Below the pieces are notes generated by a model. It was given only the letters and a program-made list of their open reading frames with translations, was not told where the DNA came from and searched no databases. DNA of 64,000 bases from Apostichopus japonicus (Eukaryota; Echinodermata; Holothuroidea; Aspidochirotida; Stichopodidae), in assembly GCF_037975245.1 (NCBI RefSeq), contig NC_092569.1:22038168-22102167 (forward strand), read 5' to 3'. Both the position numbers and the translations under genes were made by a program. Positions 6,707 to 64,000 of this stretch are shown here, in pieces; position 1 is the first letter of the stretch, and each line of letters opens with the position of its first letter.

Positions 6707-20521
<13,815 letters not shown>

Positions 20522-34236: not shown

Positions 34237-34538
34237 TCAACAGAATACACCAGCATCCTCACTATGTCCACAATTATGTATACCCCAGCCTCTGCTTCCG
34301 CATTCATCAATATTTGCCTCATGTCCTAAGCAGGCAACATCATCAATCCAAATTTCGCCAGATCCTTCACCAAAGTTTGCACTACCAATGGCGGTTCCAC
34401 TGCTTCCAAAGCCAAGTTGACGACATATTACTGAGGCATCAGTATCATCCCAGTAATCATCGCAGATCGTTCCCCACTGGCCGTCATGGTAAACTTCAAT
34501 TCGCCCTTCATTCGAGGTTTGACCGCCAACCAGGCGCA
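34237..34538 (-). CDS. SRCR gene 2, terminal exon: SRCR7 and stop
   Basis: Phase 1 start after TAACAG. It reads [77 protein letters not shown] and TGA (34239-34237). Six Cys are present. As in gene 1, AATAAA overlaps the stop codon (34237-34232). Confidence 0.9.
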
Positions 34539-34564
34539 CTGTTAGAACAATTACGGTGTTTTGC

Positions 34565-34649
<85 letters not shown>

Positions 34650-37600
34650 TATATTATATTATATTATATATTCAGATTATTCAGAATAATTTCAATAATA
34701 TTTTCAGAGACAGACATTACTTTTGTACATAGAAAGCTAAGCTTGTAATCGATGCCATGAGCATGCAAGCGACAGTCCACAAAGTTGTCTAGAAGGAACC
34801 CTGCTAAAAATTAAACAAATATCATTTGTCATCCCATTGCATGGGACGTTTTATTCAATTTCAAGTTGTATTAGCTTTATATAATATCTTGCAACCCAAT
34901 AACGTATTTAACTGAAATAAAATAACGCAATTTTTCCAAATGTAATCTGTTGTCCTTAATATACTAATACAACAGTGCATCTCCCACAATAAACAGAAGT
35001 ATATGCACTTGCCCACAATTTCCTCCTCCTCCCAAATCGTTGCTGATACAATTCTAATCCTAAAAGCGGTGTTATAAAATATTAAGGTAGTATAAACTAG
35101 AAAATAAGGTATTTTGATGGAAACACTTCCTTTTTCCTTACAGGCTGAATTTTTTTTAAATGTGTTGCTAATATGTACATCTGTAGTTTTACCTGGCCCA
35201 CAAGAAACAGAAGCATCTTCATGATGTCCACAATTGTGCTCTCCCCAGTGAGTGCTATCGCATTCTTGAATATGTTGTTCTGATCCAGAGCAAGCAACAT
35301 CATCCAGCCAAATTGGGTCTGATCCTTGACCAAATTTTGCACTTTGCCATCCAACTCCGATGCCTTCATAACCAAGTTGACGACATATAACTGATGCATC
35401 GTTGTCATCCCATCCGTCATCACATATTGTTCCCCACTGACCATCGTGGTACACTTCTACCCGACCTTCCTGTAAAGAAACACCACCAACCAGGCGCACT
35501 GCAGTAAATGAAGAGAAAATTATAAAGGAACAAACATTATCAACATTGCTTAAACTTTCAAGATACTTGCATAATTCTTCGGAACAATTTCGCGTGCTTG
35601 ATCATAAAAACAATCTTAATAACATGATAAGAGGAAGTCATGCAGGTGGAAGACATGTTGGAACATGCAAGCCTAACTGAGATAAGTCGTTTAGAGAGGA
35701 CCTGCTAACTAGTACACAGATATCAGTTACCATTCCATTGCCTTTAATTAGACGGGACATTTTATTAAAGTTTAAATAATACATGTTTTACCGTTTATAA
35801 TATACTGCAATACAATCACCGTTTTAAGCTAAAACAAATTACTTTCAATGAAATATTTTGTTCTTGTTATATTCATCTACCCGTACCTGTCCTACAAGAA
35901 ACAGAAGCATCTTCACTATGTCCACAATTGTGCACTCCCCAATCATTGCTCCCGCATTCTTGAATATGTTGTTCTGACCCAGAGCAAGCAACATCATCCA
36001 ACCAAATTGGGTCTGATCCTTGACCAAATTTTGCACTTTGCCATCCAACTCCGATGCCTTCATAACCAAGTTGACGACATATAACTGATGCATCGTTGTC
36101 ATCCCAATAGTCATCACATATTGTTCCCCACTGACCATCGTGGTACACTTCTACCCGACCTTCCTGTAAAGAAACACCACCAACCAGGCGCACTGCAGTA
36201 AATGAAGAGAAAATTATAAAGGAACAAACATTTTATTTATCAACATTGCTTAAACTTTCAAGATACTTGCATAATTCTTCGGAACAATTTCGCGTGCTTG
36301 ATCAAAAAATAATTTTAAAATATTCATAGAGGAATCCATTGATTTTGTACATAGGAAACTATACTTCCAAGCGATGCTGGGACCAAGGAAGAGATAGTCG
36401 GATGACGTCTAGAGGGGACCTGCTAACAAGTACACCAAAATCATTTGCCATTACATTGCCTTTAATCAGACGGGAGGTAACATTAAAATTATTATAATAA
36501 AGTTGTTATTCTTGCAGTGTTCATTCCTAATTTCCAGTCTTATATCATAAAAAACATAGTCATGGGTACCGGATGTATGAAGTTTAGTAGGCCTGTATTT
36601 ATATATGATTTAATTTAGTTAATAACACTGGAAATGTAATTGACAAAAATTGTAACACTATAACGATGATTGTTTATATACCGGGGTTATAAACCATTAA
36701 GGTATTGTATATTAAAATTTACGGTAGTCTTGGGGGAAAATGTCTTCACTCCCTACAGGATGGAAATATTTTAAATCTGTTCCTAACATTTACTTCTGTA
36801 GTATTACCTGGCCCACAAGAAACAGACGCATCTTCATGATGTCCACAATTGTGCGCTCCCCAATCATTGCTCCCGCATTCTTCAATAAGTTGTTCTGATC
36901 CAGAACAAGCAACATCATCCAACCAAATTGGGTTGGATCCTTGACCAAATTTTGCACTTTGCCATCCAACTCCGATGCCCTCATAACCAAGTTGACGACA
37001 TATAACTGATGCATCGTTGTCATCCCATCCGTCATCACATATTGTTCCCCACTGACCATCGTGATACACCTCTACCCGACCTTCTTGCAGAGAAAAACCA
37101 CCAACCAGGCGCACTTCAGTAAATGAAGAGGATAGGATGAAGGAACCATAATTCTCAATTTTGCTATATTCTTAAAGATATTTGTATAATTCTTCGGAAC
37201 AATTTCGCGTGCTTGATCATAAAAACAATTTTAATAATATGATAAGAGGAAGTCATGCAGGTGGAAGACATGTTGCAACACGCAAGCCAAACTGGGATAA
37301 GTCGTTTAGAGAGGACCTGCTTACAATTACACAGATATCAGTTACCATTCCATTGTCTTTAATTAGACGGGACGTAATATTAACGTTTAAATTATACATG
37401 TTTCACCGTATATAATATACTGCAATGCAATCACCGTTTTTAGCTGAAACCAAATTACTTAAGTTTTTGAAGTAAAATATTTTGTTCTTGTCCTATTCAT
37501 CTTACCGTACCTGTCCTACAAGAAACAGAAGCATCTTCACTATGTCCACAGTTGTGCACTCCCCAACCAGTGCTCTCGCATTCTTCAATATGTTGTTCTG

Positions 37601-40600
37601 ATCCAGAGCAGGCAACATTATCCAACCATATTGGGTCAGATCCTTGACCAAATTTAGCACTTTGCCATCCAACTGCGATGCCTTCATAACCAAGTTGACG
37701 ACATATAACTGATGCATCGTTGTCATCCCATTCGTCATCACATATTGTACCCCACTGACCATCGTGGTACACTTCTACCCGACCTTCGTGCAAAGAAACA
37801 CTACCAACCAGACGCACTGCAATAAATGAAGAGAATAAATATAATCGTGGTAAACTTCTACTCGACTTTCTCGTTGACTAGTCCTGCCAACCAGACGTAC
37901 TTGCAATTTATAATTGTTACGAATTGAATTGTTGGCGTTTCCAAAGTTCCATGTGCCTAATTTACAGAATGTAGAACGTCATCTTGAGGTGTTCAGACAC
38001 AACCTGTAATCGTATTTCAAACAAAACGCATATTAATGGGTATAAGGTGTATTAAAGTTAGTAGACTTTTTTAAACTGATGAATTTATTTAATTACTAAT
38101 ATCGGTAATGTAAATGACAAATAATTTAGCACTAGTATTATTATTATTTAGATAACAGCAGTATAAACTAAAATGTATTATTAATTATAAGATAAGGTAT
38201 AGGTTATTGCAAACATTTCGTTTTTTCTGACAGTATCAAAATAAATTCATCTGTTACTGATATTTTACTTCTGTAATCTTACCTGGACCACAAGAAACAG
38301 AAGCATCTTTACTATGTCCACAATCGTGCACTCCCCAATCATTACTCCCGCATTCTTCGATATGGTGTTCTGATCCAGAGCAAGTAACATCATTCAACCA
38401 AATTCGGTCTGATCCTTGACCAAATTTTGCACTTTGCCATCCAATTCCGATGCCTCCATAACCAAGTTGACGACATATAACTGATGCATCGTTGTCATCC
38501 CATCCGTCATCACATATTGTCCCCCACTGACCATGGTGGTAAACTTCAACCCGACCTTCCCTTGGAACATTTCCATCAACCAGGCGTACTGTAGTAATTA
38601 AAAAGAGAAAAAGTATCATTTTCGCAGTAAGTTTGTTATAACCTCGAAAGGTTTATGCTTACTTTACAACTCTTTACACCTTAATGTTTTCTCCGTCACT
38701 AATCCCACCCACCAGGTGAATTATGGAAAAAATATGACTGCTTTAATATATTGTGAAGCTGTTTGTTTAAATATTATCACTATTGTTAATCATTTGGTAA
38801 ACGGACTGTTCGATTTACATGCCGTTACTAATAGAAACTGTCCTAGCTACTTATCAACACATTTTAATAAAACCATTTATTTCTCCAACAGGACTGTTCC
38901 TAAAATCGTACGTTGTCCTTACACATATGAATATATCTACGTTAAATGTCTTGTATATGCAACTTACACCTGTGACAAGGAATATACATATATATATACA
39001 TAATTAAATACCCCTGGCATATCCTCGAAAGATATATTGCCCTATCAAAATGGACCTGCGCCAAACAATGTAATGTTTACAGCAGTCTATGCGATCCCAT
39101 AACCAAGTAGAAGGCAAAGTTCTGATGTAACTGTGTCATTTCCACTTGTTATAAAACATTGTAACCCCATCATGACTTCACCAAACATACATATTAGACT
39201 ACTTAAGTTACAAAGCGAAATACACGTAACCGTAACGTGAATTTTGCTAATCATGAATTGGCGCCCTTATCAAACAAACTAATGCAGATATCCTAGTAGT
39301 ATAGGCTATCCAAGGAACAAGTTTGGAACTTTTGTTAAATTAAAGAATTTTTGAGCATACATTCATAATACGTTGTATTTACACAGTACGTTCAGTGTGA
39401 CACCTCTTCCCAGATGATGTCACCAACGAAGGGCTACCAGGCTGGGAGGTATTATGAAGTTTGGTTCTATTCACTTTCATGTTATATCTAAAATGCAAAG
39501 AGGGATTCAATGTGTTGTACTTGTTTGGATACGAGGAAATCAGGAGTTACAACATGACATTTTGATGATCATTTTGAAGTCATTCATGCTGGAATTATGA
39601 ATTATCCCACTGAATAAACATTTGTAACCAAAGCAAAATTTGATCATACTTGAATAAGAACGGATTCGTCTATTGGTGATTTGGAACCTAGAATCTGTTC
39701 AATTCGTTAGAGAAAAGAACAAAGTATTTTTTTTATATATAAATTAATCAAACTCATTGAATTTTATGGGCGTTTAAACGTACTTACAATCGATTATATA
39801 TGTTAGTATAGGCTAACCTGTGATACAACGTAATCCAGCATCCTCGTTATGACTACAATGTGTTTGTCCCCATCCAGCGTTACCGCAGTGATCAATGCTG
39901 CCCTCTTCTCCGGAACAAGCAATATTTTCCAGCCATATTGGGCCTGTCCCTTCACCATAGCTAGCGTTACCTGTTGCTATCCCAGTATCACTATAACCAA
40001 GTTGACGGCAAGCCACCGACGCGTCATTGTCATCCCAATATTTACCACAAACAGTACCCCATTGGACATTATGGTAAATCTCGACACGTCCTTCTAAGTT
40101 AGTGGTGCCATTAACAAGTCGAACTGTTAGAAGATGTGCATTTGTAAAGACAAAATAAAACATGATCAATATCAGGGAGTATTCTAAAAACTCAAAAAGT
40201 GTTTGGTTTTGAGGAAAATACTGCAAGTAGACCATTATCCGTTTGTTAATGTTATTTCGTTAAAATATGATCGGAAGATAAAAGCCATACTAATTGTAAC
40301 TTTTGAATGAAGTTACTCCATCCTATAGGCATTCTTCGGAGTACAGGTTAGTCACAGTTTATTATTGTGTGGAGTGACTATATCTGAAGGTGAATGTGAT
40401 TGAGAGCGTCATGTTGTATTTAAAACATTCATTAAAGCACCCACAACTAAACGTTTTGCATTGTACTCAATAAGTGACTGAAATATGATATAATCCGCAG
40501 ACTTTATGAATTACGTTTGATTTCGAATATATTTAAAATTGCTAAAATTGTTTAAATACATCTTCCTCACCAAGTTTAGCCATTTTAATCGCTCTTTTTT

Positions 40601-47708: not shown

Positions 47709-47935
47709 GGCGGAGTGTATAGGCTAGTGGTTAACGCCGGCGTCTCCCAGTCATGAGATCCCCGGTTCGATTCCCCGCCGACAGCAATGTGTGTCGTCTG
47801 GCAAGGGTGTTGTTCAATAACAACTTCCTGACATGGACGTTAAATGGATGTGTGCCGAGAGATTGGCTTCGGTCAGCTTGCGAGTCTACAAGCCTCCATG
47901 GCTTCTTTCGCGAGTTCCTGCTTGCGGGAAGATCA
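47709..47935 (+). mobile_element. tRNA-derived SINE, copy 1
   Basis: Begins GGCGGAGTGTATAGGCTAGT, a tRNA-like head whose 5' GGCGG pairs with CCGCC at 47775-47781. It has a perfect polymerase III B box GGTTCGATTCC at 47764-47774 and an A-box-like TAGGCTAGTGG. A ~150-bp tRNA-unrelated body follows, ending GCGGGAAGATC before the CATA repeat. It interrupts block alpha copy 3 exactly at 47708/47709. A second copy at 48897-49083 is inverted. Confidence 0.82.
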
Positions 47936-48434
47936 TACATACATACATACATACATACATACATACATACATACATACATACATACATACATACATACAT
48001 ACATACATACATACATACATACATACATACATACATACATACATACATACATACATACATACATACATACATACATACATACATACATACATACATACAT
48101 ACATACATACATACATACATACATACATACATACATACATACATACATACATACATACATACATACATACATACATACATACATACATACATACATACAT
48201 ACATACATACATACATACATACATACATACATACATACATACATACATACATACATACATACATACATACATACATACATACATACATACATACATACAT
48301 ACATACATACATACATACATACATACATACATACATACATACATACATACATACATACATACATACATACATACATACATACATACATACATACATACAT
48401 ACATACATACATACATACATACATACATACATAC
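47934..48434. repeat. (CATA)n microsatellite, about 500 bp
   Basis: About 125 uninterrupted tetranucleotide units directly follow the SINE, whose other copy also ends in ATAC repeats. It is therefore most simply an expanded SINE tail. The His-Thr-Tyr-Ile and Met-Tyr-Val-Cys frames in all directions are artefacts. Confidence 0.95.
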
Positions 48435-48599
48435 GCACCCAATGAGTAAAGTCGGGACATGCTTTTTCATCCCATTTTCTCCACATAACCCGGGACCTGT
48501 AGGAAACTTGTGTGTAGGGTGGGGACATGTCTGTAAAATATACTATTTACCATTTAAGGGCAAAATAACCCTTTGAGCTAAATAAAATACTATAAAAGA

Positions 48600-49450
48600 T
48601 GTAAAGAAATGAAAGAAATGGCTAGTTTGTAAATGCACAATCCCCCAAAACACAGGACATGATTAGGCACCACGTGCAATGTCAGGACATAGTGTGCATG
48701 TACCAATAAACCCAAGACATCAAAAATAACTCAAATAATGTGCATGCATTTACCCAGGTTAGGGCAAAACTTGCTGTTTGACTTACTAAAATACTGCAAA
48801 ACATGTAAATAAATGAAGGAAATGGCTAGTCTGAAAAAAATGACACAATCCCCCAAAACACAGGACATTATTAAGCACCACGTGCAATGCCAGGACATGT
48901 ATGTATGTATGTATAGTGATCTTCCCGCAAGCAGGAACTCGCGAAAGAAGCCATGGAGGCTTATAGACTCGCAAGCTGACCGTAGCCAATCTCTCGGCAC
49001 ACATCCATTTAACGTCCATGTCGGGAAGTTGTTATTGAACAACACCCTTGCCAGACGACACACATTGCTGTCGGCGGGGAATCGCCGACATAGAGTGAAT
49101 GTACCAATAAACCCAAGACATCAAAAATAACTCAAATAATGTGCATGCATTTACCCAGGTTAGGGCAAAACTTGCTGTTTGACTTACTAAAATACTGCAA
49201 AACATGTAAATAAATGAAGGAAATGGCTAGTCTGAAAAAAATGACACAATCCCCCAAAACACAGGACATGATTAGGCACCACGTGCAATGCCAGGACATA
49301 GAGTGAACGTACCAATAAACCCAAGACATAAAAAATAACTCAAATAATGTGCATGCATATATCCAGGTTAGGGCAAAACTTGCTGTTTGACTTATTAAAA
49401 TACTACAAAACATGTAAATAAATGAAGGAAATGGCTAGTCTGAAAAAAAT
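48600..49450. repeat. 208-bp tandem repeat with inserted SINE
   Basis: CACAGGACAT(G/T)ATTA(G)GCACCACGTGCAATG starts a unit at about 48651, 48859 and 49260. Each runs through CCAATAAACCCAAGACAT and GTTAGGGCAAAACTTGCTGT. The first two starts are 208 bp apart. The third unit is displaced by the SINE at 48897-49083. Confidence 0.85.
48897..49083 (-). mobile_element. tRNA-derived SINE, copy 2 (5'-truncated)
   Basis: The reverse complement of 47768-47935 with a few changes. It includes GTGTGTCGTCTGGCAAGGGT and ends CTTGCGGGAAGATC with a short (ATAC)n tail. It begins inside the B box. It interrupts the 208-bp tandem repeat, with GACAT on both sides as a possible target duplication. Confidence 0.82.
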
Positions 49451-50780
49451 GCGCTTAAATTTCAGGGGGCTTCTTTCCCTGGACCCTCCAATAACGCGGG
49501 TCACTTGACACCACACCAGGTACCTACAACATACAATTTAATCGTTGGCACTTGGGCCCACCCGGTTTGACTAAAAAACTGGCGAGAACCCTGACACATG
49601 ATAAGTTCAGTCAAATAAAGTATTTCTCAGAATTTTTTTTTAATGCAAGCAAGATTTAAATAATGCAGCCAGGGCTTAGATCATTTTTTTATGCCGGGTG
49701 TGATGTTCATGCTTAACAATTATGCATTAGGAAACAATAACTTCAACAGTAATGAGAATCCACTCTCAAACACAGGTCATGTAAGGCAGGAAATGACGAC
49801 AACAAGGCTCAGTGGTAGATTTTCTAATTTATTTATAAAATAAAGCAACACCCTGCAAGAGGAATAATAGAGTTAAGAAAATGTTAGAATGTTCTGATAT
49901 ATTAGCGTGTACACAAATTTTGCTATTATAACATATCCGACTGACATAGTGTTACATTCATACAGTATGTTAACTTAATATTCCCTCATTCCTATATGTG
50001 CGAGAATTTCATCAGAGTCCACTTAAAATAAATTAAGCAACTCTTTCAACAAGAAATATGGTATTAAATCAATTGGATTATGAAGTAAATGTTATGACAA
50101 TAAGTATACAATAACTTATGCTACCATTGTTTAAATAACTCCTGGTTCTGCAGTTGGCAGCGAAACGTGTGAGAACACAAAGTTACCCTGGGCTATAACA
50201 CATTTTTCGGAACATCAAGTTACCCTGTGGACACATGAGGGAACACTCATTACCACTACTTTAAATACGGAAAAGTAGGCAGGAACACACTGTATACCTT
50301 TTACTAAATTCTGGCAGGAACACAGTACACCTGGTCCGTACAGAGTACGTCATCACTCTCGCAACGACATAATAATAATAGCCACGCCACAATTGCCTCT
50401 ACTGCTTTTTTATGTTAACCCTCAGACCATGTAAGAAAATAATTAGGGGCGAGTACTACATCTTGTCTGCAACATGAGCACATGAATTCATATCACTTTA
50501 TTTTACTCTTTTGAGGGCTGATTTGTTTTGTTTTACCAATATGTCAGTTGACGCTAACTCTCATACATGCAGAAGAAAATGTTGTAAGATTTACTCTCAA
50601 ACATATAAGGACTTACAACATCTTCTTTTGCAACATAATGGGCTAAATCCTCACATAAAAACCATTTATATTTTAAATGGAATATATACTTGAAGAATAG
50701 AGGCCATATGGTTCATTGTTCCTGTTTGCCTGAAGGTAATGCCATTACAAATACTCTAGCCCAGGGCTATTAAAAGGTAT
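49451..50780. other. Intergenic, no gene seen
   Basis: AT-rich sequence with one isolated repeat-family core (AATCCACTCTCAAACACAGG at about 49748). No ORF with recognisable motifs was found. Confidence 0.5.
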
Positions 50781-52175: not shown

Positions 52176-54680
52176 CAATAGCTTGCCCGAATCTTTTTCA
52201 AATATATGCCCGACAATGCCATGATTTTCTTTATTTAGCATCATGATGCCCAAATATTTCTGTGTAACACCACCGCAAGCGCAGCTCATCTGGGCTACTA
52301 GCTTTTTGCACGATCAAATTTTTCAACTAGTCAACTGTATACCTGGACATTCCCGACATGAGTGTATATCAGACACATTTTTTTTCATAGATGGGGGCGG
52401 GGGGGGGATGCCTACAAGCCTAAAAGTACAGGTTTATCATATTCTTTGTTATATTTTATTTTTTCTGTGAGACAAATTGCAGTCTTACCCGACACATGGA
52501 CAATATCCCGCCTACGTGTCATTGAACAATGTATGTTTTTCTGGAGGTAGCTGAGTACTGCGTTAAAATAATAAATATGGTAACTAAATAGGAGCTTAAG
52601 AAATATACTGTCCTATTTTTCCCCTTCAAAATGATGTTACAATTTTTCAACTTGTAATTTACCGATATTTTAGGGAAGTGTAAATTTCTAAACTGTGAGG
52701 TTATAAAATAAAGAATGTTTAGATGCAACTTGCAAGGCCTCAGAAGTGCCGTTTCCGGCAATCTGAGAGGCACCTTTCGCCCAAAATTTTCTTGTACGCT
52801 ATGCGCCAACCGATGGTGGCGCTCCGCTTAGATAGTGTCACGGGAACTTTCGAGCACAACAATTTCTGCCCCCCCCCCAAACTTAAATGGTCCCCTACGC
52901 CTATGATAGAAGAACAATAATATCAGAAAAAAGGTTAGGAATTAGTTAAAGCTATCCTCAAAAACAGAACAATGTAACAGGCAGAGGGCCTCTATGGGAG
53001 TCAATGACTTTAACAAAACAAACTTCATCAGAAAAATTGAAGGCTATCCTAAATCATAGGCCTAGGTTCAAAGGTATTTCCATGGTAAAATAGGAAAATA
53101 GAAATAAAAAATCAACAGTCATAAAATTAGCAAACCATCCCCAAACACAGGACAAAATTACATGCATAAATCCTCTATGTATGGGAGTCAATGACTATAG
53201 AATAGGAGAATATTCAAAAAGTCAGGAAATATTTGTATCCAATCTCAAGCACAGGACAATTTTATCTGGCATAGGGCCTATATTAGAGTCCAGGATTATA
53301 CTACAGTTAACTTCACCGAGCAAGATGATTGAAAGCCATCCTAAATCACAGGCACTTGTTAATTGGTATGTTCTTGATGACATAGAAGAACATCTATATC
53401 AGAAAAGGTCAGGAAATATTTAAATCTATCCTCAAAAACAGAACAATGTAACAGGCACAGGGCCTCTATGGGAGCTGTCAATGACTTTAACAAAACAAAT
53501 TCATCAGAAAACTTGAAGGTTATCCTAAATCATAGGCCTAGGTTCAAAGGTATTTCCATGATAAAATAGGAAAATAGAAATAAAAAATCAAAGGTCATAA
53601 AATTAGTTAACCATCCCCAAACACAGGACAAAATTACATTCATAATTCTCTATGTATGGGAGTCAATGACTATAGAATAGGAGAACATTAAAAAAAAGGA
53701 AATATTTGTACCCAATCTCAAGCACAGGACAATTTTATCTGGCATAGGGCCTATATTAGGGTCTAGGATAATACTACAGTTAACTTCACAATGCAAGATG
53801 ACTAAAAGCCGTCCTAAATCACAGGCACTTGTTGATTGGTATGTTCTTGATGACATTGAAGAACAATAATAACAGGAAAGGTCAGGAAATATTTAAATCT
53901 ATCCTCAAAAACAGAACAATGTAACAGGCAGAGGGCCTCTATGGGAGTCAATGACTTTAACAAAACAAACTTCATCAGAAAAATTGAAGGCTATCCTAAA
54001 TCATAGGCCTAGGTTCAAAGGTATATCCATGATAAAATAGGAAAATAGAAATAAAAAATCAAAGGTCATAAAATTAGTTAACCATCCTCAAACACAGGAC
54101 AAAATTACATTCATAAATCCTCTATGTATGGGAGTGAATGACTATAGAATAGGAGAACACTAAAAAGGAAATATTTGTACCCAATCTCAAGCACAGGACA
54201 ATTTTATCTGGCATAGGGCCTATATTAGAGTCCAGGATTATACTACAGTTAACTTCACCGAGCAAGATGATTGAAAGCCATCCTAAATCACAGGCACTTG
54301 TTAATTGGTATGTTCTTGATGACATAGAAGAACAATTATATCAGAAAAGGTCAGGAAATATTTAAATCTATCCTCAAAAACAGAACAATGTAACAGGCAC
54401 AGGGCCTCTATGGGAGCCAATGACATTAACAAAACAAATTTCATCAGAAAAATTGAAGGTTATCCTAAATCGTAGGCCTAGGTTCAAAGGTATTTCCATG
54501 ATAAAATAGGAAAATAGAAATAAAAAATCAAAGGTCATAAAATTAGTTAACCATCCTCAAACACAGGACAAAATTACATTCATAAATCCTCTATGTATGG
54601 GAGTCAATGACTATAGAATAGGAGAATATTAAAAAAGTCAGGAAATATTTGTATCCAATCTCAAGCACAGGACAATTTTA
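50780..54680. repeat. Diverged 472-bp tandem repeat field
   Basis: GCACAGGACAATTTTATCTG recurs at about 53254, 53728, 54196 and (cut off) 54667, a spacing near 472 bp. Each unit holds sub-units with CTCAAA(A)ACAGAACAATGTAAC, TAGGCCTAGGTTCAAAGGTA and CTATGTATGGGAGTCAATGA. Older, more diverged units extend back to about 50.8 kb. The field is broken by a foreign insert at about 52.0-52.9 kb. Confidence 0.82.
52015..52905. mobile_element. Possible second CATAGGCGTAGG-type MITE
   Basis: The right end CCCCTACGCCTATG (52892-52905) is the inverse of the CATAGGCGTAGG terminus of the MITE at 43904. Inside are C- and G-homopolymers and GAAAAATTCGGACAG / TTGCCCGAATC pieces like that element. The tandem repeat resumes right after it. 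The left end (CATACAAGGCAGGGG) is degraded and no clean target duplication is seen. It includes an (AT)n tract at 52112-52173. Confidence 0.45.
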
Positions 54681-54792
<112 letters not shown>

Positions 54793-55333: not shown

Positions 55334-55500
55334 CTACTTGATTCCCCAAGCAGGGAGATGGAGTATTTGGATAAGAGAGGCTTTTCCTTCTCTTCTGCTC
55401 CTTGCCCTCATAGGGCCATAATGGACACCCAAAGAGTCACCAATGATTTCGAAGTCTGCTTCTGCAAGAAGCCTGCCAGCTTTGAGGGAAGATTGTACCC
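55334..55500 (-). CDS. BRCT exon 4 with stop
   Basis: Phase 1 start after AATATAG: T|GG makes the conserved BRCT Trp. It reads (W)VQSSLKAGRLLAEADFEI, IGDSLGVHYGPMRARSRREG, KASLIQIL then a stop at 55336-55334. WVxxSxKxxxLLxExxFEixGD...GPxRAR closely follows the end of BRCT1 and the linker of BRCA1. The second BRCT of BRCA1 is absent; the frame ends where it should begin. Confidence 0.78.
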
Positions 55501-58500
55501 CTATATTACAAAGGTATGAGAATAGACAAAACATGAAGAACCATTATCTACAGTACATTACATTTTTAATGGCTGATTTTCAGAACTTCTTAAAATCTCA
55601 AGTGCTGTACCTCTTAATTATTATAGAAATTTCCAAAACTACCATCAGCAAAGAAATAAAATTGGAAGCTTAATATCTACCATTAGCAACTGCTTTCAAC
55701 ATATATTCAATGAAGTAATAGCAAGAGATCATTCTCAATATATGCACATTTGCTGAGCTGAAATACATTTGTCTATTTATGATCATTATCACTTTAAACT
55801 TCCCCTGTTCAAAATACAAGAAGTTCAGGAACCAACATGGCTCAGCAAAATTTCAAAAACTCATTCAAATGAGTGGCATGCAAAGAAGCACCCCTAATGC
55901 AAACAGGTGGACAGAACAAAATTGTTTCTTAATTTGCACGCATTAACATATCATCATTAGCTGCTGCCATACCACACATGCTCCAAGCATAAAGGAGTGA
56001 AACCTACACATATAGTCAGTATATTTCAAATTCCAATAACACACAAATGTTTTGAAACTGTATGCCCAATGCAACTTCCATTTAACTGTCTAATCACTCT
56101 CAATATGTCAAGTTACTGTGTTGTACCATATATAACTTCCATTTACAAAATGACCTGTTTCAAACAAGGATGATTATAAGTGCTTAGCAGAGAGACATAT
56201 AATTGGAAACAATTCCATATTTAAATGTTGTAACTGAAAAAGTTTTTTAAAGATAGTTCTATATGAGTTCTGCTATCACTGAAGCAACTGATGGGTGTTG
56301 CTTATTTTGGTTAACATTTTGTCCAAAGGCCAAAGCCACTCTTGAACTTTAATCTATCGTCACCGTTTGATGTTCTACAGTTTTGACTTCTTTATCCTTT
56401 TCTGCCCTGACACTGCCTTACTGAGTGACCAACATCTACATACTGAATGACTTTTGTCCTACTATATAGGGCATAGTCCTAAATCAGAAACAGAATCTTT
56501 GTACAACACTGCAGGTAAAAGGACTGATCAAGCATATGTGCAGGTGATAAGAACATATTATAAACATATATAGTCACATGGACAGACAAATTCATTTAAA
56601 CTTACATGAGTAGCTCACTATCCACAATCCAGCAGCAATGCCTGTAATATACTTCATAGTTCTGGGACATTTCCCCTTTTCTGCAAAAAAGATTTAAAAC
56701 ACAAAGTGATTTTGCTTCCTTTATTGTTTGTGAAATTACCTAATCAGTCCTTGATAAAATGTATGTACACAACCTGCACTAGTTAATAAAGTTTATGAAT
56801 GACATTCAAGAAGGTCAGCCTGAGGTCAGAATTTTGACAATGTCAACAAGTGCACACTTCTAAGGGTATTAAAGAACTCCTTATCACACCCAGCAATTAA
56901 ACTCAAACATGAAGATATATGTAAGAATACTGAAATCCATGAGTTTACACATTTTATTCACATGTGCTGTTGGTTAATGATTACTTAAAAGATTTTGAAG
57001 TTTCCAATAACATGAAGCGAGTTAACTAACTGATAAAAGAATGAGAAGACATTAAAATAGAGTTACAACAATACTCACCAGCAATGAGAATAACATGGGT
57101 TGTGGTACTCTCTATCATTGCAGTATATCTACAACCATGGAGGTCTGCCAGCTTCTGTATATGATTCTGTATAGCAAAATCAGATAGGTTAAAAAAAATT
57201 GAAGTGAGTATAATTTGTCACTTATAAATGTGAATATAAACCACATTTATGCTCTTAATTGAAGAGTATATTTAGGATCTTACTTTTGATCAATTTTCAA
57301 AGTCTGAAGCACAATCATGTAAATTCTAACACTAGAAATAACAGATAGTGAATAACTTTCTTTACAAGTCAGTAATATTCATATCCATGCATGCACAAAA
57401 GAGAATGTTCACATAAATGTCAAATAACCTCTTAAAGGAGTTCACAAGAGCACCAATGGTACAGTAACTCATACCATAATGACAGTATGAATTAGAGCAG
57501 CTAATAAGAGTCCAATTAAAAACCCTTTGTCACAGCGTGAGCTGAATTTCAACCAAAGCTATTAGTATTCTGGATAATCACAAGTCTTTGACCAAAAAGT
57601 CCTTAAGATTAATGATAAGGGCACAATAATGGACAGCCTGCACCGAATAATACAACTCACACTGCAATGAATGAATAGGCCTAACCTATATGCATATTGC
57701 ATTAGCAAAGTTAAGTTTGGTATGGAGAGCAAAAATGTTTACAGTATGTTGTTTTCACTTGCCTTCAAGTTTTGAAAAGATCCCTAAATCTGCCTGTTGT
57801 TGTCAAAAATGGCTGTTGATAACCCAAACTCTGACAAAATATTCCCCAACACACGCATAAACAAAAAACTGTACAGCAATAGGAAGGATATATTTATCTC
57901 CCTTTTCATAAAAATAGCTATCAGCTGTGTGAGTGTGTCCTGACATCTGCTCTTGATAACAGAAAGTTTCTTAAGTTAACACACATGTCCATGGACAGAA
58001 TACCACTCACCTGCTGGAACCGATGCTTTAAGCCACTTGACACAAATGAGAATGCACTTAGGACAGTCTCTGCATCCATCTGGTCTGGCAAAGGATCACT
58101 TAGATTTTTTGTGTCTGCAGATCCACTAGGGACAGTCTCTGCATCCATTTGGTCTGGCAAAGGATCACTTTGATTTTTGGTGTCTGCAGATCCACTAGGG
58201 ACAGTCTCTGCATCCATCTGGTCTGGCAAAGGATCACTTTGATTTTTGGTGTCTGCAGATCCACTAGGGACAGTCTCTGCATCCATTTGGTCTGGCAAAG
58301 GATCACTTTGATTTTTGGTGTCTGCAGATCCACTAGGGACAGTCTCTGCATCCATCTGGTCTGGCAAAGGATCACTTTGATTTTTGGTGTCTGCAGATCC
58401 ACTAGGGACAGTCTCTGCATCCATCTGGTCTGGCAAAGGATCACTTTGATTTTTGGTGTCTGCAGATCCACTAGGGACAGTCTCTGCATCCATCTGGTCT

Positions 58501-59332
58501 GGCAAAGGATCACTTTGATTTTTGGTGCATGCAGATCCACTAGGGACAGTCTCTGAATCCATCTGGTCTGGCAAAGGATCACTTTGATTTTTGGTGTCTG
58601 CAGATCCACTAGGGACAGTCTCTGCATCCATCTGGTCTGGCAAAGGATCACTTTGATTTTTGGTGTCTGCAGATCCACTAAAGACAGTCTCTGCATCCAT
58701 CTGGTCTGGCAAAGGATCGCTTTGATTTTTGGTGTCTGCAGATCCACTAAAGACAGTCTCTGCATCCATTTGGTCTGGCAAAGGATCACTTTGATTTTTG
58801 GTGCACGCAGATCCACTAGGGACAGTCTCTGAATCCATCTGGTCTGGCAAAGGATCACTTTGATTTTTGGTGTCTGCAGATCCACTAAAGACAGTCTCTG
58901 CATCAACCTGGTCTGGCAAAGGATCACTTTGATTTTTGGTGTCTGCAGATCCACTAGGGACAGTCTCTGCATCCATCTGGTCTGGCAAAGGATCACTTTG
59001 ATTTTTGGTGTCTGCAGATCCACTAGGGACAGTCTCTGCATCCATTTGCTCTGGCAAAGGATCACTTTGATTTTTGGTGTCTGCACAATATTGTATGGTG
59101 CAACTATCAGGATTGAGATGATTTTCTAAAAAAGAAAAAATAATTGAATATGATAACAACACAAAGATCAGAGTGATTTTCGACATAGCCGAAGTGGCCA
59201 ATGGTTCATATAAACAGGCCATATATTGGCAGATTTGATGCCCCAAAACAGTGAACAATTAAACAGATACATGCCTGCTTATATGCAAACATTTTGTAAA
59301 ATCAACTTTTAATCAAACTCGTCCTTGAATTG

Positions 59333-59420
<88 letters not shown>

Positions 59421-62400
59421 TTATATGCCTCTTGATCATTCAACTTAATTAGTATTCAACTGATGAATTCCAAAGACAGTAGAATCCTACAATCCAGCTG
59501 CATAGTCACTTGCAAAATTCATAAAGACTTTCAAATTACTTGATATAGAAATGTAATAACAAGCATTTACAAATATCCCAAGCTGAGAACAATTGGGAAT
59601 TGTGCAGTTTTAATTGTATGGCACTGCTCCAGCATTACTGCACTGTTACTTGTCTTTGACTGTGCTCTTGGTACATATTTGTAAGTATATATGCTATATT
59701 TGTGGGTTGGTTCCAACAATCTATTTAATGACACAACTTTTGTGGCCTTACTATATGCTCTGTAAGAACTAAAAGCTTGTGAAACAAGAAATGTAGGTGA
59801 GCTCCAAAACAATATTTACATTCAAAACAAACAATACATGAAAACTCTGAAAAGCACTTTCTGAGAGGTATACGTACCTTTGACAGTTTTGAATTCATAT
59901 TTATACCGTACTTTCATACTTTAAACATACCAGTTTTTAAGAATTGCTTCTTAATCTGCTTTCACCTAACCAACCCTAAATCAAGCAGTGTTGAAGGTTT
60001 TACTCAGTCAATGGTGAGGCATAGAAGTTTTAGCCTAATAACTTACCCTCATAAAATGCTATGCAATCCTCAATAGTGGGCCTCAGTTTTTCATCTCTGT
60101 TAAGCATGTTTTCCAATAGTGGCTGAAAAGTGTCATGTGTTCCAAGATGTTTAAGGCTATATTGACCCTTTTTCATGTTTGTCACCAGACCTTCTGGCTG
60201 ATCAGTGTAAGGCACTGTGGTTTCGAATGGGACATGTCCATCACTCAAAATGTAATACATACCAACATCTGAAAGAAGGAAAAATACTTACAAAATAATT
60301 AAAATTGATCATAACTTTCAAATGTAATGTTTAAATTGTATGTTAATCAATTTCAAAAAGTGAGATTGAAGATTTCCTTTTTTTTTCAAGACCGTCTCCT
60401 TAGTAGTGGATCCATAACTAACGTACCGCTGAAAATCATTTTGAAAATTGACTGTTTAATGATTTATGGCATAAAAAAAGTAAAAATATTGTATAATAAT
60501 GTTGTCAGATTGCTGCCAGTTTCCTGTACAGTAGAGGTGCTTGTGGCATTTGTCTTCACAGAAATAACTAAATAGATAGTGGTGCAGTAGTTGTGTGGAG
60601 ACAGGTTAGTGAGAAGTGAAGTCAATTTTAAAGATTTCCACCATCCAGTGACTAACATATTTTGCATTGCTTATGGGGAAAAATCACTGCAAACCAGTTG
60701 TTTTAGGTATCATGCACTCAACTTTTACAAAATGTTATGGTTATGATCGCATGGATAGTTATGCAATTGGTTTTGAAGGACAGAAACCTGTTAAAGTTTT
60801 AAGTGTACATTATACAGTCTGTGCAATCATGATATTTTGGGATGTTGGGCCAAATTCTCTGTGTATCAGATAGTAATTAGAATGCAAGGCAAGCACATGT
60901 CGAGGTAATACAATGCAACACAATTACATTTTCAATTGAAAATTTGTTTGGGAAGTGTTTTATTATACAAATAATTTATTTTAGCATAAAAGAGTCATTT
61001 GATAACATGGTGTTTATAATCTAAGAAGAAAAGAGAGGTTGTTGCATGGATGAGTAGTTAGATCTATGTAGATTGGACAAGGTGTTTTCATAACAGTTAT
61101 TAAGATTGATTATTTGTAATCTATGTAACACTAAGTAGGAGTAAAGTGGAGAAGCGTTATACTCCTTACCCAATTCCATGCTTTATCACTGATCAGAAGT
61201 AGTCTTGAAAATAACATGGAGTTAACAATATTCAAGATTGAGGCATATGAATAATAGATTCCACAATCACATTACCAGAGGTGACCGTCCACCGAACAGT
61301 GACCCTTCTTAATTTGCAAATAAGCTAACAGGGCTAAATAAACCTTCCATCGCAAAAAGTATTACTGTCATGGCAAATGAAGTTATCCCATGACTTATGG
61401 AGTACATGGCAAAACAATGTGAAATCACCCACAGTTGTCTCATTTCCAATTTTCAATTGTGACTTATAATCATTGTACAAATGTACTGTAAGTCCTTTAG
61501 TGTAAAACAAGAACTTGTATTGTTTTCTCTCGTCATCTTTCTTTACCAGGAAAACTTTCTGTCTCTACGGGAAAATCCTACTGTCCCAAAATCAAGAGCT
61601 TGTCCATTCTATTGATTTTTTTGTGACAAAATATATAATAGTCAACTCTTCAAAGAGGGCTTCACTGTTCATATATTATTGACCTAACAGTAATTGTATG
61701 AAAGCAATAGCAGGATCATTGCAAAAGCTATCACATTTTATTTTGATATCTTGAAAATGAAATATATATACTTATAATGTAATTAACATGTCTAATCTCA
61801 AGGAAGTGGTATGTAAGTGCAACCAACATAATGACATAAAGAACAGACTGGATAAAGTGGTATATACTTCACTATTCCCTCGTTAAACAAACGCTGGCTG
61901 AAACAGACAGTTTAAATCAATTTGTGAGTAATTTTTTGGCTGCCAAGATATATTTAAGTAGCTTGACAGTGGCTCAAATACAGCAGCAATCCTGTTAATC
62001 AAAGCAAATAGTTGTTATGTCTCACCTGGATATCAGATGACTTCTTGTATCGGCAACGATTGTTGCTGGTGTTTTCAGGACTTGTCGAGCAGAGAGTTCC
62101 CATTGCTTTTGTAAGAAGGGTAGTGCCATGGGTAAATTGTCTAGAAATACCAAAATCTCCCAGAAGTATCTTTTCATTGTGATCTATGAACAAACAAAAG
62201 CAATTAATGTGCAATTAGTATAGACAATAAATCCATAAAAGACAATTTGATTTCTGCACAGAATGGTGACTATTGTTACTTTTACATTACTAATAAAATA
62301 AAATTATACCTTTATATATGATTTTCTGTTTTAATTGAAGCTGTAAAGCTATTAAATTAAAAGTTTCTTCTACATGATTTTAATACCACTACAATGTTTG

Positions 62401-63218
62401 TGGACATTTACAAATTTAATTTGGAAAATTTGGAATGAATAACATCATTCAAAAGATTTGACTGTAAAATATAAATCAATACTGAGAGTGATAACTTGAA
62501 GGCAAACTGGGACTAACAGTTTTAGCATGCTTAAAATTGAGGGCAATTCTCATTGACCTGTGACCAAAATTACAATCATGCATGGCTCTTCTGCTGCTGT
62601 TGGTTTTTGTAATGCTGTGCAAAAGTTGTGTTGAATTTGATACAAACAAGTTAATGACCAGCACCATGGAATGGAAATCTCTAATACTCAATACAACATT
62701 CTGAAATGACTCTCAAACAAGCCCTGTGACTGCTTACCTAAGAGAACATTACTTGGTTTCAAGTCCCGGTGGAGAATGTTCAGTTGATGCAATTCTGCAA
62801 TGCCGAGCATAAGTTGATAAGTTAGAGATGCTCTTTTGTTTGCTGTGAGCTGAGGTCTTAATGGGTTCCCCTTGTTTTCAATTATTTCCTCTAAGTTATA
62901 TTCACAAAGGGGTGAAGCTAAATAGAGAAAGTCATCATCTTCTTCCGAAAGTGTGTTTCTTAACAAATGCTTTGATCCTTGCATGCCCTCATTAAGCACT
63001 TTATTCACAGTTTGTTCCATAGAGTGGGTGCCCTGGTTCAGTCTTTTGATTGCTACAGGCCATTGCTCATCTACCAGTCCAATGAAAATTTGTGCGCCAT
63101 TGCTACCATCAGCAATTTTGTACTGCCTGCTGAAAGAAAGTCGCCCAATTGACTTGAAACAAACTCCAGAGTCTTTGTTTAGGAGCTGCTCTAACTGATG
63201 AGCCCATCGCTGTTGGTT
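55334..63218 (-). CDS. IRE1-like kinase / 23-residue repeats / BRCT locus (possible single gene)
   Basis: Seven minus-strand exons: 63218-62738, 62183-62026, 60268-60047, 59125-58011, 57166-57079, 56680-56606 and 55500-55334. Exons 1-3 code a protein kinase resembling IRE1/RNase L, exon 4 fifteen 23-residue repeats plus the start of a BRCT domain, and exons 5-7 the rest of a BRCA1-like BRCT with a stop. All junctions fit in phase except exon 2 to exon 3 (phase 0 to phase 1), where a tiny exon may be missing or the kinase may be broken. The kinase-to-repeat junction is in phase (GAG G|AA). It could instead be two genes: an ATG near 59186 opens exon 4's frame. The 5' end is outside the window. 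No KEN RNase domain was seen. Confidence 0.55.
55501..56605. other. Intron, no feature seen
   Basis: About 1.1 kb of AT-rich intron between BRCT exons. Nothing else was recognised. Confidence 0.5.
56606..56680 (-). CDS. BRCT exon 3
   Basis: 75 nt, phase 1-1, acceptor TTTGCAG, donor T|GTAAGT. It reads (E)KGKCPRTMKYITGIAAGL, WIVSYS. The RTxKYxxGIAxGxWIVSY core is very close to BRCA1 BRCT1 (RTLKYFLGIAGGKWVVSY). Confidence 0.82.
57079..57166 (-). CDS. BRCT exon 2
   Basis: 88 nt, phase 0-1, acceptor TATACAG, donor G|GTGAGT. It reads NHIQKLADLHGCRYTAMIES, TTTHVILIA, the first helix and second strand of a BRCT domain (xxTTHVIxxA). It follows in phase from FVSSGLKHRFQQ in the repeat exon. Confidence 0.78.
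57167..58010. other. Intron, no feature seen
   Basis: Intron of about 840 bp between the repeat exon and BRCT exon 2, AT-rich. Nothing recognised. Confidence 0.5.
58011..59125 (-). CDS. Exon with 15 x 23-residue repeats and BRCT start
   Basis: An 1115-nt exon, phase 1 to 0, acceptor CTTTTTTAG, donor CAGCAG|GTGAGT. It codes ENHLNPDSCTIQYC, then exactly 15 units of ADTKNQSDPLPDQMDAETV plus PSGS, then FVSSGLKHRFQQ, which is the first strand of the BRCT domain. Variants are few: D to C at position 2 in two units, P to F at position 20 in three, and A to S in two. The repeat is acidic, rich in Ser, Pro, Asp and Gln, and probably disordered. The frame stays open upstream to about 59258, with ATGs at 59258 and about 59186 (MSKITLIFVLL). 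This could be a signal-like start, or just translated polypyrimidine tract. Confidence 0.75.
58050..59084. repeat. 69-bp coding minisatellite, 15 copies
   Basis: Fifteen adjacent 69-bp units, most differing at 0-4 positions, fill 1035 bp. The unit length is a multiple of three, so the frame is preserved. Near identity, including at third codon positions, implies recent expansion or homogenisation. Confidence 0.95.
59334..59425. repeat. (AT)n microsatellite in intron
   Basis: About 90 bp of TA repeat in the intron between the kinase C-lobe exon and the repeat exon. Confidence 0.93.
60047..60268 (-). CDS. Kinase exon 3: C-lobe
   Basis: 222 nt, phase 1-1, acceptor TTTCAG, donor G|GTAAGT. It reads (D)VGMYYILSDGHVPFETTV, NMKKGQYSLKHLGTHDTFQP, LLENMLNRDEKLRPTIEDCI, AFYE. 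YYILSDGHxPF and the LLxxMLxxDxxxRPT motif are typical of IRE1/RNase L-type kinases. Compared with them, about two residues before YYIL seem missing, at the same place as the phase mismatch with kinase exon 2. Confidence 0.78.
60269..62025. other. Intron, no feature seen
   Basis: About 1.75 kb intron inside the kinase. I searched by eye for a micro-exon that would repair the phase between kinase exons 2 and 3 and did not find one. Confidence 0.5.
62026..62183 (-). CDS. Kinase exon 2: activation segment
   Basis: 158 nt, phase 1-0, acceptor TCATAG, donor CAG|GTGAGA. It reads (D)HNEKILLGDFGISRQFTH, GTTLLTKAMGTLCSTSPENT, RYKKSSDIQ. DFG is present, the activation loop has Thr and Ser, GTLCSTSPE replaces the usual GTxxWxAPE, and KKSSDIQ is the IRE1-like helix F region. 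Confidence 0.82.
62738..63218 (-). CDS. Kinase exon 1: N-lobe and catalytic loop
   Basis: 481 nt, phase 0-1, acceptor TTATTAG, donor G|GTAAGC. Residues 1-30 are NQQRWAHQLEQLLNK... before the kinase. The glycine loop is IADGSNGAQIFIG (35-47), VAIK lysine is at about residue 58, and YLASPLCEYNLEEIIE is the hinge. HRDLKPSNVLL sits at 150-160 with the catalytic Asp. The spacing and hinge wording fit the IRE1/RNase L kinase family. The catalytic residues VAIK, HRD and DFG are all kept, so it may be active. Earlier exons lie beyond the window. Confidence 0.85.
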
Positions 63219-63334: not shown

Positions 63335-64000
63335 TAATTAGGTAAACACTTTACACTCAGGTGGCCATGATTTTAAAACGTAAATGTAACAGACAGGTTA
63401 GAATCCACCCTCAAACACAGGACCATAGTAAGGGTCATTAGGTATACACTGTTCATTCAGTAGCCATGAAAAAGTAACTGTAACAGACAGGTTAGAATCC
63501 ACCCTAAACACAGGACCATGGTAAGGGTCATTAGGTATACACTGTACATTCAGGTGGTCATATGAAAGTAACTGTAACAGACAGGTTAGAATCCACCCTC
63601 AAACACATGACCATAGTCATTAGGTATACACTGTACATTCAGTAGCCATGAAAAAGTAACTGTAACAGACGAGTTAGAATCCACCCTCAAACACAGGACC
63701 ATAGTAAGGGTCATTAGGTTTACACTATACATTCAGTAGCCATGAAAAAGTAAAGTTCTGTAACAGACAGGTTAGAATCCACCCTCAAACACAGGACCAT
63801 AGTAAGGGTCATAAGGTATACACTGTACATTCAGTAGCCATGAAAAAGTAACTGTAACAGACAGGTTAGAATCCACCCTCAAACACAGGACCATGGTAAG
63901 GGTCATTAGGTATACACTGTACATTCAGGTGGTCATATAAAAGTAACTGTAACAGACAGGTTAGAATCCACCCTCAAACACAGGACCATAGTAAGGGTCA
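63335..64000. repeat. ~95-bp tandem repeat running off the window
   Basis: TAACAGACAGGTTAGAATCC starts a unit at about 63388, 63480, 63574, 63664, 63761, 63857 and 63947. Each is followed by ACCCTCAAACACAGGACCAT and ATTAGGTATACACTGTACAT. Spacing is 90-97 bp. It shares the core AATCCxCCCTCAAACACAGGAC with the repeats at 48.6-54.7 kb. Confidence 0.92.

Follow-up and report, generated by a model that had tools for sequence, protein, structure and literature searches.

A degenerate member of a multi-copy gene family joining an IRE1-like kinase, an acidic repeat and a BRCA1-type BRCT in Apostichopus japonicus

The tail of BRCA1 normally reads phosphorylation that is written by other kinases. To our knowledge, no named protein carries an IRE1-type kinase and a BRCA1-type reader on one chain, and searches of open-access literature listed no match for a kinase-BRCT protein of such type. 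In IRE1 and RNase L the kinase is followed by the KEN RNase domain, according to the domain order given in PMC3710099. BRCA1 occurs in invertebrates, and the orthologues listed in PMC8483008 include one of the purple sea urchin. The window analysed here is a stretch of 64,000 nucleotides from Apostichopus japonicus (assembly GCF_037975245.1, contig NC_092569.1, positions 22,038,168 to 22,102,167 of the forward strand). It contains a gene in which kinase exons are followed by a tandem repeat and by BRCT exons. An earlier note, made from the sequence alone, had read this gene as a possible fusion of an IRE1-like kinase, a 15-unit acidic repeat and a single BRCA1-like BRCT, which would be a new architecture. 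Our main reading, to which we give a probability of roughly 0.64, is that the window holds a degenerate member of an old multi-copy family with an IRE1-like kinase, an acidic tether and a BRCA1-type BRCT, in which the kinase was unconstrained and the first BRCT (BRCT1) constrained after dispersal.

The gene has seven minus-strand exons (E1–E7) running from 63218 to 55334, in which E1–E3 encode the kinase, E4 the repeat and the BRCT start, and E5–E7 the rest of the BRCT. The order on one strand given by the earlier note is therefore borne out. Loci are named below by contig, and the window copy is C9:22038168-22102167 of a 671.6-Mb assembly. E1 (62738..63218) covers the N-lobe of the kinase up to HRDLKPSN with VAIK and HRD present, and this exon is also open at C10, C12, C13 and C19. 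E2 (62026..62183) contains DFG, the activation segment and the start of helix F, and its donor is in phase 0. E3 (60047..60268) encodes the C-lobe. E4 (58011..59125) consists of a short linker, 15 acidic repeat units and the start of BRCT1 with the phosphate-pocket Ser-Gly. The BRCT1 core is formed by E5 (57079..57166, 88 nt) and by E6 (56606..56680), which carries the phosphate-pocket Arg-Thr-x-Lys, and E7 (55334..55500) encodes the end of BRCT1. Since E1 carries an acceptor, the gene start lies outside the window. The GC content is 0.40–0.49 in the exons versus 0.30–0.34 in the introns. Splice sites were scored by a consensus matrix, with donors ranked against the GTs of the window; all six donors are at or above the 99th percentile and the acceptors reach the 86th–99.9th percentile. 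The earlier note had stated that the kinase-to-repeat junction and all later junctions fit in phase. This holds from the last kinase exon onward (E3 to E4 1/1, E4 to E5 0/0, E5 to E6 1/1, E6 to E7 1/1), but not within the kinase, where E2 to E3 is mismatched in the window copy (0 to 1). A microexon between E2 and E3 was considered and rejected, as the best total among 60 candidates (11.0) was equalled by 63.5% of random stretches, and a 7-bp deletion in E3 was found instead.

The BRCT half of the gene closely resembles the first BRCT of BRCA1. E4–E7 scored 41.1 bits against Pfam BRCT and matched human BRCA1 BRCT1 in the PDB with an E-value of 4.4e-18, and the top 18 of 27 matches were BRCA1. 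The window BRCT1 is 42% identical to human BRCA1 over 95 amino acids. By the exon boundaries given in PMC3519833 and PMC10504444, human BRCA1 exons end at c.4986, c.5074 and c.5152, the last of which splits Trp1718, and the last base of exon 15 lies in codon 1559 (c.4675). Against these published boundaries, the E4/E5, E5/E6 and E6/E7 introns stand at the same places and in the same phases as human introns 16/17, 17/18 and 18/19, and the E6/E7 intron splits the codon matching Trp1718. E4 is entered in phase 1 as is human exon 16, E5 has the length and phases of human exon 17, and the PDB match stops where human exon 20 ends. The shared intron positions indicate that BRCA1 DNA moved with its introns, which is neither a retrocopy nor chance. 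Judged by these sequence comparisons, BRCT1 in the window is certainly BRCA1-derived, and the BRCA1-like BRCT claimed in the earlier note is confirmed. Residues of the phosphate and +3 pockets of BRCA1 are named in the structural descriptions of PMC3380633 and PMC10386641; the phosphate-pocket Ser-Gly and Arg-Thr-x-Lys are retained in the window BRCT1.

Among solved structures, the kinase half is closest to IRE1 and RNase L. E1 and E2 together scored 81.1 bits against Pfam Pkinase. E3 alone is weak (11.6 bits, E-value 0.18), and the score is 100.5 bits over profile positions 6–258 of 263 with E3 read on and an X placed at the break. The best PDB matches were IRE1 and RNase L, which took the top 17 among the 60 matches listed and were followed by bacterial kinases. 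NCBIfam returned kinase names only, far below the cut-offs, and nothing for the BRCT.

The same gene is present at several places in this genome. In whole-genome searches E7 matched nine times, at C9, C10, C12, C13 (three times), C17, C19 and C22, with E1–E2 and E5–E6 in matching places, giving nine copies at seven loci on seven contigs. The C13 copies are 40,027 bp apart, and one C13 unit stands for its three where loci were read. Over the 10 kb that were compared, two of the three copies in C13:9.23-9.32 Mb show no difference, which may reflect either amplification in the very recent past or an effect of the assembly. All seven exons are in order at five of the seven loci (C9, C10, C12, C13 and C19). 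E3 is missing at C22, and at C17 E3–E7 were read, with E1 (six stops) and E2 further upstream. Two diverged kinase relatives lie on C17 (20.15 and 23.91 Mb), with kinase exons about 48% identical (38–59% by piece). At 23.91 Mb the kinase is followed by several BRCA1-like BRCT exons (E6 was recognised by eye, E4 was not found), and the joined BRCT pieces gave 18 PDB matches with E-values up to 0.01, all 18 of them BRCA1 (best 2.6e-7). At 20.15 Mb the kinase and E5 were the sole parts detected; the open reading frames (ORFs) between them are presumably reverse-transcriptase-like. The earlier note had proposed looking for the same gene order in related genomes; within the same genome it recurs at seven loci, and BRCA1-like exons follow the kinase in the two relatives. 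Because the fusion is also present in diverged relatives, it characterises a subfamily and predates the recent copies. These results indicate that the kinase-repeat-BRCT fusion is real.

Four other kinase relatives (C8, C17:17.92 Mb and two on C16) showed no BRCT at an E-value of 0.1 or below in about 5 kb after the kinase. At C8:15.27-15.28 Mb and C17:17.92-17.93 Mb, ORFs within about 3–5 kb after the kinase have weak matches to Phage_integrase (tyrosine recombinase) with E-values of 5e-4 and 0.002, below the cut-off, and the kinase module may thus have a further partner in a tyrosine recombinase. The two C16 relatives (about 1.16 and 1.58 Mb) carry a similar downstream ORF with no significant Pfam match, and the one that was tried had none in the PDB. 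No relatives of the family were found in scans of viral contigs.

The earlier note counted a single BRCT, and besides BRCT1 none was found in the window. The search for the second BRCT (BRCT2) there gave nothing below an E-value of 0.5, while the same method with human BRCT1 found two exons (8e-6 and 1e-4). As a control, 200 shuffled BRCT1 queries were run, of which 185 gave any match, the best with an E-value of 0.07. C19 and C17 keep BRCT2-like exons 1–2 kb beyond E7 (tblastn with human BRCT2, E-values 0.018 and 0.017), one of those at C17 with a 19-base gap. When the C19 pieces were joined to BRCT1, the BRCA1 match rose from 68.8 to 77.9 bits and reached residue 199 of 202. C9, C10, C12, C13 and C22 are without the BRCT2-like segment, and they differ from C17 and C19 beyond a TA microsatellite (54687..54792). 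In the window, a 469-bp tandem array of 3.8 copies (52906-54681) lies where C17 and C19 keep these exons. The ancestor therefore probably had a second BRCT, to judge from these weak matches, and the present single BRCT would be a secondary loss.

Selection was compared between the two halves by counting changes against the majority codon, with small numbers and no tree. Rows that were broken were first left out, namely C9 and C17 (E3), C9 (E7), C22 (E1) and C17 (E5); C17 lacks rows for E1 and E2, and C22 lacks one for E3. The kinase showed 20 non-synonymous and 6 synonymous changes (per-site ratio 0.89), and BRCT1 showed 4 non-synonymous and 8 synonymous changes (per-site ratio 0.15), two of the four being in the decayed C17 copy. 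The contrast (Fisher p 0.014) indicates that, once the copies had dispersed, the BRCT half was of importance and the kinase half of little. Among the young copies, BRCT1 alone looks protected by selection, and the kinase drifts almost neutrally.

The difference between the halves could also be explained by two separate units: a kinase gene that stops after E3 and is dying, and a BRCT gene that is still alive and has a promoter of its own within or immediately before E4. Kinase damage in E1–E3 at every locus except C10 and C12 agrees with this, as do the near-neutral kinase changes beside a constrained BRCT1, and the open frame from 59258 into E4 includes an ATG. However, that open frame is merely the pyrimidine tract of the acceptor. 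The E3 donor and the E4 acceptor are strong (99.7th and 98.7th percentile) and match in phase, the donor is kept in the six loci compared and the acceptor AG in all seven, and the same order is found in a diverged relative. We consider two units unlikely.

Alternatively, the loci could be a graveyard, in which a fused pseudogene was spread by segmental duplication, nothing is functional, and the sameness of BRCT1 is due to chance or gene conversion. All seven loci have at least one loss and the kinase changes are neutral, as such an explanation would have it. It is opposed by the 4:8 ratio in BRCT1, half of whose non-synonymous changes come from the decayed C17, and by the invariance of the BRCT1 core. 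E5 has no substitution across the seven loci (with a 5-bp insertion in C17), E6 is identical in all seven, and together they have 0 variable columns of 163, while introns i4–i6 vary at 5% (121 of 2348, p 4e-4). The kinase exons have 32 variable columns of 868 (p 0.09 against introns). A family without any function is also rather improbable in our view.

The window copy is a degenerate member of this family. E3 is 7 bp short near its 5' end, at bases that are present in all five other aligned loci, which breaks its frame versus E2. E7 has one extra base that is absent from all six other loci, and its frame runs into a premature stop at 55334 where the others read on. Both frames are shifted, which rules out an intact kinase-BRCT product from the window copy. 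These breaks could be assembly or base-calling errors in an intact gene, since the E7 insertion sits in a short run of one base and the two identical C13 tandem units could be an assembly effect. But a 7-bp deletion is atypical of base-calling, and the window copy is also without the BRCT2-like segment as are four other loci, which makes errors very unlikely. An intact kinase with a single BRCT linking stress or RNA sensing to DNA-damage reading, as the earlier note had it, draws on the exon order and phases and on IRE1 and RNase L being the nearest solved kinases, but is highly improbable with frames broken in the kinase and in E7 and no RNase domain in the 20 ORFs tested. The intact tether thus fails for the window gene, and none of the results points to RNA or stress sensing. 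As for the new architecture, a fused family unmatched in the literature searched is real, and the window copy itself is broken.

Several observations weigh against our main reading of an old family with a constrained BRCT1. At none of the loci is an intact kinase linked to both BRCTs: two frameshifts are present at C9, the E4 frame is broken at C10, DFG is changed to DFC at C13, C19 lost the E1 acceptor, C22 has lost 1 bp from E1 and the whole of E3, C17 is heavily decayed, and C12 is open across E1–E7 but without BRCT2-like exons. Both diverged C17 relatives are also damaged. The joined BRCT of the 23.91-Mb relative scored 18.8 bits in Pfam versus a cut-off of 21.3, and two single ORFs tested there gave no BRCT. 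On their own, the joined C19 BRCT2 pieces matched only BRCT_2 in Pfam, with an E-value of 0.14, and no BRCT among the PDB entries, and single BRCT2-like exons gave no Pfam BRCT match. In the +3 pocket, Phe1704 is Ile in the window BRCT1. As for selection, the 20 non-synonymous kinase changes amount to 19 codon changes; 11 of them involve C12 alone or together with C19, and with these left out 8 codon changes remain versus 3 synonymous.

The repeat in E4 is a 69-bp tandem repeat (58061..59085) of 14.9 copies with 96% matches, i.e. 15 units of 23 amino acids with a net charge of -4 per unit, exactly the acidic 15-unit repeat described before. It varies in number by locus (C9 15, C13 about 17, C19 11, C12 5 and C22 4 units, with the frame broken at C10 and C17) and is a coding variable-number tandem repeat. 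Its open frame is weak evidence alone, because a unit free of stops remains open however often it is repeated. Another frame is also open, and the unit variants favour the gene frame only slightly. Coding status from the repeat alone was therefore rejected as an argument, since non-synonymous and synonymous counts differ little among frames.

The gene sits in a duplicated stretch of about 30–35 kb. At the 5' end, homology begins at the identical point in all five loci reached (C9, C10, C13 by its tandem junction, C19 and C22), directly after a (TATG)n tract that is short in C10. At the 3' end it extends as far as a (TATG)n tract in C9, C10, C12, C13 and C22, which in the window is a perfect (CATA)n microsatellite of 501 bp (47934..48434). 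Beyond this tract C10 and C13 diverge, C9 and C22 are alike for about 110 bases compared, and C12 is partly so. From the 5' end to the 3' tract the distance is 34.9 kb in C9, 34.4 kb in C10 and 29.9 kb in C22. Terminal inverted repeats of the unit are not supported, as 38 of 1000 shuffles scored as high. An inverted repeat pair of about 189 bp and direct repeats lie near the (CATA)n microsatellite (47768-49451). The stretch may have spread as a mobile unit, by reinsertion of circular DNA at microsatellites, or by segmental duplication.

Taken together, the join would most likely have been made by intron recombination that brought the donor of the final kinase exon together with the acceptor of the exon corresponding to BRCA1 exon 16, both of them in phase 1. 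Going by the domains, the ancestral BRCT part most likely bound phosphoserine partners as BRCA1 does, the acidic repeat may have served as a flexible tether that varied in length, and a kinase or pseudokinase would thereby have been placed beside the bound partners. The stretch of about 30–35 kb carrying the gene would then have been copied to several chromosomes, after which the constraint on the kinase would have ended and that on BRCT1 stayed. Because the kinase is being lost in recent copies, a surviving BRCT-only reader or decoy is likelier than catalysis; any surviving function would more likely be that of a phosphopeptide reader, possibly from a kinase-less or decoy product, than that of a kinase. 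It is doubtful, and distinctly a speculation, that a dispersing microsatellite-bounded unit spreads a BRCA1-type reader while shedding its kinase, yielding decoys or regulators that might vie with the BRCA1 of the animal itself for phosphorylated partners. The family shows that the tail of BRCA1 can move as a module with its introns, and the recent copies are a natural test of which half matters, with BRCT1 kept and the kinase decaying.

The animal's own BRCA1 was also looked for. A genome search with Pfam BRCT listed 10 places. It takes each exon separately and failed to detect even the window family, so the absence of canonical BRCA1 from its list proves nothing. A C23 locus was rejected as the animal's own BRCA1 because it looks BARD1-like, partly by resemblance. 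A genome RING search for canonical BRCA1 was swamped by other RING genes. With 150 candidates scored out of 320, it gave at least 137 RING-domain matches at an E-value of 0.001 or below, and many of these lie in long open frames that form clusters on C1, C7, C10 and C17. These matches suggest a large RING expansion, which is probably TRIM-like. Elsewhere in the window, two minus-strand blocks of SRCR-like exons (6707-17631 and 34237-40259) were seen, and all three ORFs tested were SRCR by Pfam; such blocks would suit an invertebrate rich in SRCR genes, for instance an echinoderm or another deuterostome. A 94-bp minisatellite (63337..64000) lies just 5' of E1 and runs past the window end, and is not coding as far as seen.

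Compared with known systems, the gene differs from BRCA1 in that its BRCT follows a kinase; no RING turned up in the sequence that was fetched, which took in 20 kb on the upstream side of the window copy, and no BRCT2 in the window. Compared with IRE1 and RNase L, no KEN RNase domain turned up when 20 of 47 minus-strand ORFs within or close to the gene, E2 and E3 among them, were tested, and E3 of the window splices toward E4. Twelve gene-strand ORFs of at least 90 amino acids lie in the 20 kb upstream, and the 10 of them that were tested gave no sensor domain (luminal or ankyrin). The window copy has no continuous, catalytically complete kinase owing to the E2/E3 frame break, and the helix-F glycine is Ala in the kinase-BRCT subfamily and in one C16 relative. 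On the other hand, the kinase matches IRE1 and RNase L (PDB 4pl3 and 4o1o) with an E-value of 4.5e-16 for E1 and E2, or 3.5e-19 with E3 read on, and it shares with them VAIK, HRD and DFG. The BRCTs of BARD1 and microcephalin match the same window BRCT1, but with scores far below that of BRCA1.

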